64,000 nucleotides of DNA. It comes from Anaerolineaceae bacterium. Lineage in GTDB: Bacteria > Chloroflexota > Anaerolineae > Anaerolineales > Anaerolineaceae. The stretch's first letter is position 1, and each line of letters starts with the position of its first letter. A model generated the notes under the pieces. The model saw only the letters and a program-made list of their open reading frames with translations, searched no databases and was not told the origin of the DNA. The DNA is taken from positions 35,843 through 99,842 of the forward strand of contig WOYY01000025.1 in assembly GCA_011620555.1 (NCBI GenBank). Direction: 5' to 3'. Made by a program: the position numbers and the translations under genes. Shown here in pieces: positions 30,263-57,700 of this stretch.

Positions 30263-30291
30263 TTGACATCACATGCGTCCAAGATTATAAA
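30263..30291 (+). promoter_or_regulatory. sigma70-like promoter upstream of GH2
   Basis: TTGACA-17-TATAAA. Confidence 0.65.
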
Positions 30292-53299: not shown

Positions 53300-54505
53300 C
53301 TAATCAAGTGAGGGTAATTCAGCGGTGATGTTCTCATTCCACCAGTACATACAGGTGGTGCATTCGCTGCCAAATTGGGCGAAGCCATCCAGGTCAAGCT
53401 GTTCAAGGCTGACACCATCGGCCAGGATCAAGTTGCCCTGGTTGTCCGTGATCGGGCCTTTGAAGACGTCGAAGCGGTCGAATTCACCAGCCAGCATCTG
53501 GTCCAAGATTTCGCGGACCATCGCCAGATCCTCTTCGGGCAGCTCAGCCACACCGGGCATCAGTTCCTCGCCTTCCATGAAGCCATAGAGGCCCAGGCCG
53601 CCGGAATCGGCGTCAAAGTATTCCCAGCCGCCCTTCCAGATGCCTTCGCGGGAGGCTTCAACGATCCGGGCATATTCCACACCCCAGTTCCAGTACATGG
53701 AAGTGAGGCAGGCATCCACGGTGCAGTTTCCAGAGTAGTCATAGGTGATGCCCCATTTGCCTTCGGGAGCGACCATGGCAGGAGCGGGGGTGTCCGCACC
53801 GGTCATCACAACCTGGGCGCCGGCGGAGAAGAGCGATTCAGCGCCTTCCTGTTCCAGGATGGGATCATGCCAGGTGTTGATGAAGCGGACATCAATTGTG
53901 CATTCGGGGCAGGTTTTCTGGACGCCCAAAGCAAAAGCGTTGCCCAGGCGGGTTTCTTCGGGGATGGGGAAGGTGGCCATATAACCCAGTTTCGGGTTGC
54001 CATCCATCTTGGCCCGGGAACCGGCCAGCATACCGGCCAGGTATTTCATATCTTCCATCGCGCCCATCAGGTTGCCAAAGTTTTCGCCATTGGCTTTGTA
54101 GCCACTGACGTGGATGATATCCACATCCGGGAATTCTTCCGCCACGATTTCCGAGGCGTCCATGAAGCCAAAGGATGTTGTGAAGATCACATCAAAGCCT
54201 TTGCGGGCCAGGGAGCGGATCACCTGTTCGGCATCGGCGCCCTCGGGCACGTTTTCAACGTAGGCAGTGTGAACGTCGGCGACGTTTTCTTCGACGTACA
54301 TCCGGCCAACATCATGGGACTGCGACCAACCGCCATCGTCATGGGGGCCAACATAGACGAAAGCTACGTTATATTTTCCCTCTTCCGGGGCAGGGATCTG
54401 AAAGCCTGCAACGGTCTCTTCTGTTGCCTGGGTTTGGCCGCATGCAGAAAGGGCAAACGCAGCAACAACTAAAATAGCCAAAAGCCAAAAAATATGTTTT
54501 CTCAT
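53300..54505 (-). CDS. BMP family nucleoside-binding lipoprotein
   Basis: lipobox ALSAC; YVGPHDDGGWSQSHDVGRMYVEE. Confidence 0.93.
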   Translation of the reverse strand: MRKHIFWLLAILVVAAFALSACGQTQATEETVAGFQIPAPEEGKYNVAFVYVGPHDDGGWSQSHDVGRMYVEENVADVHTAYVENVPEGADAEQVIRSLARKGFDVIFTTSFGFMDASEIVAEEFPDVDIIHVSGYKANGENFGNLMGAMEDMKYLAGMLAGSRAKMDGNPKLGYMATFPIPEETRLGNAFALGVQKTCPECTIDVRFINTWHDPILEQEGAESLFSAGAQVVMTGADTPAPAMVAPEGKWGITYDYSGNCTVDACLTSMYWNWGVEYARIVEASREGIWKGGWEYFDADSGGLGLYGFMEGEELMPGVAELPEEDLAMVREILDQMLAGEFDRFDVFKGPITDNQGNLILADGVSLEQLDLDGFAQFGSECTTCMYWWNENITAELPSLD

Positions 54506-55089
54506 CTCTCATCCTTCTTCGTCTAAATATTTGGTGGATTGATTAGACTGAAGTACAAATTTTTGAGTCGTGATCTCCTTTCCCAAATTAGCCATGTGGA
54601 TCGAGTGATGAAGGCCTTCTATTTCTTCATTCAAACGCATGGCGTTGAATAAACAAATATTCCATTGAATTTATTGGCAGGAAAAACATATCTGGTAGGG
54701 ACAGATCGATTGAACACATTCCCCAAGCAGTAACCCTTTTGATGTCAGACGTCTGGTGGTTCATAACGCAAGAATTCATCCTTGCAATCGCAACCTCAAC
54801 TCATTCGGCTATGTTAAGTCAGTAGACAGATTTTATCATAGAAAACGACGAGATTAAATTGTCTAGACACATTAACTTTTTGTTTACATCCGGATGGATC
54901 TGCGCCCAACACCGTTTTCGGCTCGCCCAGCAGCGGCCCGCTTTCCAGGCCCAAGGGCCGCGCCAGCGTCCAAATGAGACCCAAATTGCAGCCAAATACG
55001 GATAACGCAGCCCAGATAATCAAAGCTTAACCCGGCGTTAACCTTTTGATGTGGTAAAAACCCAGGAGTTTGCTAAAATCGAACCAATT

Positions 55090-55226
55090 ATGACTGAGAA
55101 ATTTGTTCAGGAACTCAAGCGAAAGCCTCATCACCGAACCTCTCCCGGAGGAGCGGCGTTTGGCGCTTAACTGAACTTATTTACGAGCGTATATCAAAAG
55201 GCCTTCCTCCAGGAAGGTCTTTTTTG
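55090..55226 (+). promoter_or_regulatory. putative transcription attenuator with leader ORF MTEKFVQELKRKPHHRTSPGGAAFGA (55090-55170) and terminator (~55199-55226)
   Basis: 26-codon ORF; ggccttcctccaggaaggtctttttt terminator before the ABC operon; GGAGGAG (55147-55153) can pair with the terminator 5' arm. Confidence 0.45.
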
Positions 55227-55324
55227 TTCCCCGAGGAGGTTGCATGCGATCTGAGCGATAAAAAACGAGACAGCAAGCCAACGTATTGGAATAACCAGAT
55301 TTTATTTATTTTTGAGGAGAAAAA

Positions 55325-56062
55325 ATGAAACAGAAAGTTTTAGTGACAATGATTGCCGTTCTGGCCCTCGGCCTTCTGGCCTCCTGCGCCAAATCATCTG
55401 ATGCACTGGTCGTTGCAACAGATGCCGCCTTCCCGCCCTTTGAAATGATTGACGAAGAGACAAAAGAGATCGTTGGGTTCGATATCGACCTGATGAACGC
55501 CATTGCCGAAAAAGCGGACCTGGACATCGTCTTCCAAAACGTCGCCTGGGACCCGCTGCTGGCGGGCATGGCGGATTGCCAATATGATATGGCTATTTCC
55601 GGCATGACCATCACGCCCGCGCGGGCTGAACAATTCAGCTTTTCAGATCCCTACATCAACGCCGGCCAGATCGTCACCGTCCAGGCGGACAACACCACCA
55701 TCAACGGCCCTGAGGACCTGGTTGGTCTGACCGTCGGCGCCCAGATCGGCACCACTGGCGCCATGGAAATTGAAGCCATTGCCGACACCACGCTCAAAAT
55801 TTACGATACCTATGAACTCGCTTTCCTCGATCTTGCCAATGGGCAGGTGGACGCAGTGGTCGCGGACTATCCCACGGCTGTGGCTTTCGTCAGCAACACC
55901 GCCGCCAATCTAAAAGTTGTCGGCGATGTCTTCACCGATGAAGGCTATGGCGTGGCATTTTGCCTGGGCAACACTGAACTGATTGACCAGGTCAATGCAG
56001 CCATCGCAGAGCTTCAGGCCGAAGGCTTCATCGACGAGCTAGTTGCCAAATGGTACAACTAG
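55325..56062 (+). CDS. polar amino acid ABC transporter substrate-binding lipoprotein (family 3)
   Basis: lipobox LLASC; DAAFPPFEMIDEETKEIVGFDIDLMNAIAEK. Confidence 0.93.
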   Translation: MKQKVLVTMIAVLALGLLASCAKSSDALVVATDAAFPPFEMIDEETKEIVGFDIDLMNAIAEKADLDIVFQNVAWDPLLAGMADCQYDMAISGMTITPARAEQFSFSDPYINAGQIVTVQADNTTINGPEDLVGLTVGAQIGTTGAMEIEAIADTTLKIYDTYELAFLDLANGQVDAVVADYPTAVAFVSNTAANLKVVGDVFTDEGYGVAFCLGNTELIDQVNAAIAELQAEGFIDELVAKWYN

Positions 56063-56142: not shown

Positions 56143-56955
56143 ATGCAAATCCGAAAAGAACTGGAAAAAGTCCCCGGTTTCGAGGTTGCCAACCACCAGA
56201 TCGACAGCTGGTGGTGGCTGGTCGCGGCGGTCGTCGCGATTGTTGCCCTCCTGGCAGGTCTCGAACCCGATCCCTACTGGCGGATTATTAAATTCGTCAG
56301 CGATGGCTTGCTGGTGACCGTTGGCGTCACCATCACCGCCTTTATCCTGACCCTGGTCCTGGGTCTGCTCACGGCGTTGGGCCGACTCTCGAACAACGGT
56401 TTTGTCCGTTGGTTCACCACCATTTACGTTGAAGTTGCCCGGGGGGTTCCACTCCTTGTCCAATTGTTGTTCTGGTATTTTGCTTTTCCTTCAATTATTC
56501 AAGCATTAGGGCGGCTGATCAGCTACGAACCCTTTGAACATTACCTGGCCAACCCTTTTGTGATGGCCATCTTGGGCCTGACCTTCTGCTATTCCGCTTA
56601 CATGAGCGAAATCTACCGGGCGGGAATCCAGAGCGTCCCCAAAGGCCAAAACGAGGCGGCCCGCAGCCTGGGCATGACCCACAATCAGTCCATGCGCTAT
56701 GTGATCCTGCCCCAGGCCTTCCGCACGGTCCTTCCGCCGGTGGGCAATGAGTTCATTTCCCTGCTGAAAGATTCTTCCCTGGTGAGTGTGGTTTCTGTGG
56801 CCGATATCACCCGACGGGGCCGGGAGTTCATGGCGGCCAGCTTCCTGCCGGTTGAAACCTGGATGATGATCGCCCTGATCTATCTTATCATGACCCTCAT
56901 CTCCGCCCGAGTCGTTGCCTGGATCGAACGAAAAACTCAAACGGAGGCCCGCTGA
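56143..56955 (+). CDS. polar amino acid ABC transporter permease
   Basis: [43 protein letters not shown]. Confidence 0.95.
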
Positions 56956-56956
56956 A

Positions 56957-57700
56957 ATGACCACCCCTTCCCCCACCCCCATTATCCAAATTGAAAACCT
57001 GCATAAACACTATGGAGAGACTGCCGCGCTCAACGGCGTCAGTTTGAATGTTTACCCCGGTGAAGTTGTGCTGATCATCGGCCCTTCCGGCTCGGGCAAG
57101 TCCACCCTCCTGCGGTGCATCAACCGCTTGGAGACCTTCCAGGCGGGTTCCGTCTGCGTGGATGACATCCCCCTGACCACGGCGGAAAACATCAATGCAA
57201 TCCGCACCGAGGTCGGCATGGTCTTCCAGTCCTTCAACCTTTTCCCCCACCTGACGGTGCTGGAAAATGTGACCATCGCCCAGAAGGTCGTCCGCAAGCG
57301 CAGCCCCGAGGAAGCCGAAGAGATCGGCCGAGCGCTGCTCGCCAAGGTCGGCATTCCCGAAAAAGAGAATGACTATCCCGGCCAGCTTTCCGGCGGCCAG
57401 CAGCAGCGGGTGGCCATCGCCCGAGCGCTCGCGATGAACCCCAAGATCATGCTTTTTGACGAACCCACCAGTGCGCTGGACCCAGAGATGATCCAAGAGG
57501 TTTTGGATGTCATGCTCCAGCTGGCCAAAGAGGGGATGACGATGGTGGTCGTCTCCCATGAAATGGGCTTCGCCCGGGCCGCGGCGGACCGCGCCGTCTT
57601 GATGGATGAGGGCCTGATCGTTGAAGAAGCCGTACCGGATGTGCTTTTCAGCAACCCCACCCAGGACCGAACCAAGGCCTTCCTGAGCAAGATCCTTTAA
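56957..57700 (+). CDS. polar amino acid ABC transporter ATP-binding protein
   Basis: [52 protein letters not shown]. Confidence 0.95.

Follow-up and report, generated by a model that had tools for sequence, protein, structure and literature searches.

Leader-peptide attenuators are on record from Proteobacteria, Actinobacteria and a few Firmicutes (PMC2965389, PMC9413887), the only lineages given for such systems in PMC2965389, where those of Firmicutes were new. The trp, his and leu attenuators of Proteobacteria carry sensor codons in a leader peptide, form 1:2, 2:3 and 3:4 hairpins, include an intrinsic terminator and have the stop codon near segment 2, as do the leaders of Anaerolineales described here, but the latter differ in their predicted leaderless start, their putative basic-amino-acid sensor and their RNA sequence. 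In mycobacteria, leaderless poly-cysteine uORF attenuators have been described (Canestrari 2020, cited in PMC13236596) and predicted (PMC4633059); they resemble the predicted form of our leaders, as leaderless uORFs that carry codons of the regulated amino acid, yet that amino acid is Cys rather than Lys, Arg or His, and PMC13236596 classes them with translation attenuation. A survey of Actinobacteria reported neither a conserved terminator for the cys leaders nor any RNA element ahead of operons for arginine, lysine or histidine (PMC1262725). Orf34 of Salmonella speF represents arginine-related uORF control before a metabolic gene (PMC6386406), although there the gene is a polyamine gene, the architecture is another one and the host is a gammaproteobacterium. 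The "ABC-leaders" of Naville and Gautheret place a premature terminator/antiterminator before ABC transporter operons, in other lineages and with other motifs (PMC2965389). Leader-peptide attenuation as such is known; its leaderless basic-amino-acid form, common to uptake and biosynthesis genes in Chloroflexota, would be new. A non-exhaustive full-text literature search returned no report of a leader-peptide attenuator in Chloroflexota or of Lys, Arg and His as a joint sensor of uptake and synthesis. By titles and abstracts, in a non-exhaustive search with subscription papers mostly outside it, we found no amino-acid operon for which arginine or lysine codons do the sensing.

The window, by which we mean the whole stretch of 64,000 nucleotides that was analysed, holds an amino-acid ABC transporter operon whose leader is very likely a ribosome-mediated transcription attenuator, tying an operon for basic-amino-acid uptake to the supply of charged tRNA-Lys, tRNA-Arg and tRNA-His. 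A preliminary description of this DNA had already read the region as an attenuator, a reading that conserved compensatory pairing and in-frame basic codons now support and from which we infer the dependence on amino acids. The elements of the locus are as follows.

55071..55079, + strand: extended -10 box (TG-C-TAAAAT); the -35 is weak in this species (GTGGTA)
55090..55170, + strand: leader peptide ORF, predicted to be leaderless; ATG 10 nt past the -10 box
55117..55137, + strand: putative sensor codons AAG CGA AAG CCT CAT CAC CGA (K R K P H H R), lying 12-30 nt ahead of segment 2
55117..55121, + strand: 5' strand (AAGCG) of the outer 1:2 stem, pairing with 55164-55168 and doubling as part of the Lys-Arg codons
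55134..55143, + strand: segment 1 (CCG, CCUCU), partner of segment 2
55147..55157, + strand: segment 2 (GGAGGAGcGGC), the 5' arm of the antiterminator
55164..55168, + strand: 3' strand (CGCUU) of the outer 1:2 stem, overlapping the leader stop codon
55201..55210, + strand: segment 3, GCCUUCCUCC, partner of segment 2 (antiterminator) or segment 4 (terminator)
55196..55225, + strand: intrinsic terminator with a 12-bp stem, TCCA loop and U-run
55234..55239, + strand: AGGAGG, SD-like and conserved, though no start codon is conserved with it
55325..56062, + strand: amino-acid ABC transporter substrate-binding lipoprotein, closest to the Lys/Arg/Orn, GlnH and Arg families
56143..56955, + strand: permease subunit, HEQRo_perm_3TM domain above cut-off
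56960..57700, + strand: ATP-binding subunit, GlnQ/HisP/ArtP-like

Every element of the preliminary description was recovered base for base at its position: the ORF of 26 codons (MTEKFVQELKRKPHHRTSPGGAAFGA) from the ATG at 55090 to the stop codon at 55168-55170, CCTC at 55139-55142, GGAGGAG at 55147-55153, CTTCCTCC at 55203-55210, the terminator, and gaggagg at 55233-55239. Because the nearest upstream gene (53300-54505) lies on the minus strand, the terminator does not mark the end of a gene upstream.

The terminator folds far more stably than shuffled sequence (-16.3 versus -7.2 kcal/mol, z -4.3), as does the antiterminator stretch at 55146-55211 (-24.2 versus -15.5, z -3.3), and the two share segment 3 and exclude each other. 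The 2:3 pairing is longer than originally given, with GGAGGAG-c-GGC at 55147-55157 opposite GCC-UUCCUCC at 55201-55210, a helix of 10 bp. Taken by itself, the window's 1:2 hairpin was not clearly more stable than shuffles (z -1.3 for the 91-nt leader). Covariation, which had been suggested as a check, was found across 25 leaders: 20 of 24 helix pairs changed on both sides, none of 500 shuffles did as well, and 93.4% of alignment cells were paired, in an alignment that leans towards its own model. Since some rows of the MAFFT and covariance-model alignments have the terminator displaced by one base, we added an alignment-free test in which each leader's segment 2 was paired with segment 3 of every other leader. 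A leader's own duplexes averaged -14.3 kcal/mol and swapped ones -11.8, a difference matched in 0 of 20,000 permutations among related, and so not fully independent, sequences. The corresponding 1:2 test, in which segments 2 were those defined by the 2:3 duplex, gave 8 of 20,000, again among related sequences. In the alignment helices 1-3 covary, the protecting 1:2 hairpin included, although the latter is weak in the window's own sequence. A terminator was detected in 66 of 68 leaders. Segment 2 occurs in all three reading frames, and in L004 and L011 the leader ORF crosses the conserved RNA in a different frame; therefore, the 3' half of the ORF is preserved as RNA, not as peptide.

The peptide is kept where the model predicts, as in-frame basic codons. 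When codon and RNA-pair conservation were compared, as had been proposed, the frame was found to vary further downstream. Across 51 non-redundant leaders, Lys, Arg and His codons made up 160 of 306 codons (52%) in frame 0 at 15-32 nt before segment 2, compared with 44/306 (14%) in frame +1, 38/306 (12%) in frame +2 and 13% elsewhere in frame 0; as AAGCG is where the covariance models start, the position of the basic codons is biased and their frame is not. Of the 43 instances of AA[AG]CG or AA[AG]CA[TC] (Lys-Arg or Lys-His) in non-redundant binding-protein leaders, 39 are in frame 0. The sensor would thus consist of the Lys, Arg and His codons 15-32 nt before segment 2. A sensor of histidine alone was considered and dropped, L006 and L011 having no His. 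The type of putative sensor codon tracks the regulated gene: the zone is 50% Arg in leaders of argG, 26% Arg and 21% Lys in those of LysX-type ligases, 50% Lys in those of homocitrate/isopropylmalate synthases (few data), and 25% Lys, 17% Arg and 11% His before amino-acid binding proteins. The family amounts to a natural codon-swap experiment.

The leader peptide is probably translated from a leaderless mRNA. Its ATG lacks an SD, which the preliminary description had counted as a weakness; it is not one, since the ORF looks leaderless. The distance from promoter to ATG is near-constant across leaders, with the ATG 6-10 nt past a -10 box in 62 of 68, and transcription should therefore begin at the ATG, where absence of an SD is expected. 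Leaders from other genera almost always have TTGACA 16-18 nt above the -10, most commonly as TTGACA-17-TATAAA. Most species of the window's genus have lost the -35 consensus, and the window itself combines a poor -35 with an extended -10. Upstream of the -10, a block GTTAAC...TGATGnnGTAAA is kept (55030-55079 in the window; same place in L003 and L004), a possible activator site in this genus with its poor -35. The sole TTGACA-17-TATAA match within the window lies at 30263-30290 (0.03 expected); no leader ORF was recognised behind it.

In the model that we propose, transcription begins at or a few bases from the leader ATG and ribosomes would load on the leaderless mRNA. When basic amino acids are scarce, the lead ribosome would stall on the Lys, Arg and His codons at 55117-55137, blocking segment 1 and the outer AAGCG stem, so that segments 2 and 3 could pair, the terminator would not form, and RNA polymerase would read into the genes for binding protein, permease and ATPase. 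When charged tRNA is ample, the ribosome would continue to the stop codon (55168), where it would cover or have passed segment 2, leaving segments 3 and 4 to pair and transcription to end at about 55225. The sequence shows the elements, their covariation, where the codons lie and how codon type matches gene function; stalling, read-through and the exact amino acid or acids sensed are inferences. In simulations that folded the RNA downstream of the ribosome up to the terminator loop and treated all RNA under or behind the ribosome as unavailable, 2:3 pairing was likeliest for an A site 12-29 nt ahead of segment 2, the location of the basic codons, and dropped to nil, partly by construction, for a ribosome on the stop codon. 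Full leaders folded without a ribosome favoured the terminator (mean 0.91). In the window's pre-terminator RNA, 2:3 dominates and 1:2 is weak, such that the antiterminator is favoured even when no ribosome is stalled (P about 0.75 throughout). The OFF state should therefore need a ribosome that passes segment 2, or folding kinetics, and superattenuation should be slight.

The leader belongs to a family that recurs across Anaerolineales, of which about 65 related leaders were analysed. Leaders built alike precede orthologous binding-protein genes in five other genomes of the genus and, as L011, L018 and L027, in three further genera; each combines a short ORF for a basic peptide with segments 1 (CCUC type) and 2 (GGAGG type), then a terminator. 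In an exact-string search, the conserved core matched within the genus only, once per genome. A first covariance model (R1), built from six leaders and run over 147 genomes of the family without the downstream gene as a criterion, gave 29 matches, of which 24 are leaders, 23 of them verified upstream of a substrate-binding protein, these proteins falling into two sequence clades. A second model (R2) was run over the order and phylum; 40 regions plus listed loci were read, chosen mostly by score and some for nearness to binding-protein matches, and included leaders before argG (8), LysX-type ligases (10) and homocitrate/isopropylmalate synthase (3). NCBIfam is the basis for naming one representative each of argG, LysX, synthase, ilvD and ilvB, the synthase scoring just below the cut-offs; the other genes were named by inspecting their sequences. 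Many R1 and R2 matches proved to be ordinary terminators (L075, L078, L080-L082, L093-L100, L102, L103, L105-L109, L115, L123, L126, L131, L140, L146, L148, L149); R2 scores below about 40 bits need a check of promoter and ORF, and raw R2 tallies are not true leader numbers. In the host genome, R2 gave nine other matches, all weak, and none of the four inspected is a leader. An Rfam search of the leader found no known family, T-box or riboswitch near its gathering score, and no leader family, His_leader included, above threshold (best Phe_leader, 22.5 bits where the gathering score is 55, E 4.1).

We lean towards viewing these leaders as one modular scaffold, a regulon of leaderless attenuators in Chloroflexota in which Arg, Lys, mixed basic and perhaps Gln codons have been swapped for the control of both uptake and biosynthesis. 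The device is apparently not shared by all amino-acid operons, since the regions upstream of 20 trpE genes of relatives showed no convincing Trp leader. L086 has the same scaffold with a peptide MELRRQQQNPKPQN... and a citrate-synthase-like gene as its longest downstream ORF; the Gln codons in its sensor zone suggest either altered specificity or decay following gene loss. In other Chloroflexota families, L092 and L101 are Ile/Leu/Val-rich leader ORFs with terminators before ilvD and ilvB, and are probable branched-chain attenuators. The family would be an instance of attenuation from leaderless mRNA, and its covariance model can aid annotation of uncultured Anaerolineales.

A narrower version of the attenuator would respond to just one amino acid, such as Arg or His alone, with the other basic codons incidental to stem or composition. 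The Lys-Arg codons do serve the RNA, AAGCG pairing with CGCUU, the closest solved binding proteins include arginine-binding ones, and some species have strong His runs (HHH in L003). No residue is universal, however, with His missing from L006 and L011 and Arg from L120; Lys, Arg and His are all enriched, and AAG interchanges with AAA, and CGA with CGT and CGC. We regard this version as rather unlikely, while giving it some weight. It is much harder to credit that the nascent peptide itself arrests the ribosome on sensing a free metabolite such as arginine, as SpeFL/Orf34 or the fungal AAP do. An Arg-related uORF is indeed known in Salmonella speF (PMC6386406), and a C-terminal TSPGGAALGA is kept within the genus, but across the family the peptides diverge with no sequence conserved in one frame, the frame over the conserved RNA shifts (L004, L011, L063) to the point that segment 2 is found in all three, and the sensor residues vary with the gene.

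We give next to no credence to a constitutive premature terminator preceded by a chance short ORF, with the operon driven from a promoter between terminator and gene. The preliminary description had itself held that a promoter between the terminator and 55325 would refute an attenuator; in a scan that is not decisive, none there rose above background. Promoter-like scores downstream of the terminator reach 7-9 of 12, but the leader promoter is much better in most relatives (10-11 of 12), and such an arrangement leaves both the 2:3 covariation and the in-frame basic codons unexplained. The attenuator responding to charged tRNA for basic amino acids is the reading that we retain, although the weak 1:2 hairpin and poor -35 box of this species, and the scaffold of L086 ahead of a citrate-synthase-like gene, count against it.

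The host probably imports Arg, His and Lys. Models for argG, hisD, lysA and lysX found no match in its genome (G000; 2.32 Mb, 96% complete, 3.6% contamination) while matching control genomes, and uptake of these amino acids is likely because these genes are missing; four joint absences at 96% completeness are suggestive, single absences being no proof. The trpE model was likewise unmatched in this genome, and the host is a probable multiple amino-acid auxotroph (argG, hisD, lysA, LysX, trpE). Its close relatives are Anaerolineaceae MAGs, one of them named Brevefilum. The binding protein at 55325-56062 is nearest to AncQR, to glutamine-binding and amino-acid-binding proteins and to the Lys/Arg/Orn family model, with no family model above its equivalog cut-off; the amino-acid-binding proteins we take to be the T. 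maritima arginine-binding protein. For transporters such as this, with a ligand unsettled by sequence, the leader codons offer a clue to the substrate.

Between terminator and gene, the SD-like sequence of the preliminary description is kept in relatives, but the mini-ORF MRSER behind it (55244-55261) is not, and we rejected the latter as a part of the system. AGGAGG or GGAGGT occurs in this interval in 28 of 38 non-redundant binding-protein leaders and in 2 of 12 biosynthetic ones (examples are the window at 55234-55239, L055-L058, L060, L062-L065, L067, L068, L071-L074, L076, L079 and others). Complementary to the 16S 3' end, the post-terminator AGGAGG lies well away from the true start, in most cases lacking a start codon, and resembles a STAB-SD or a ribosome standby site.
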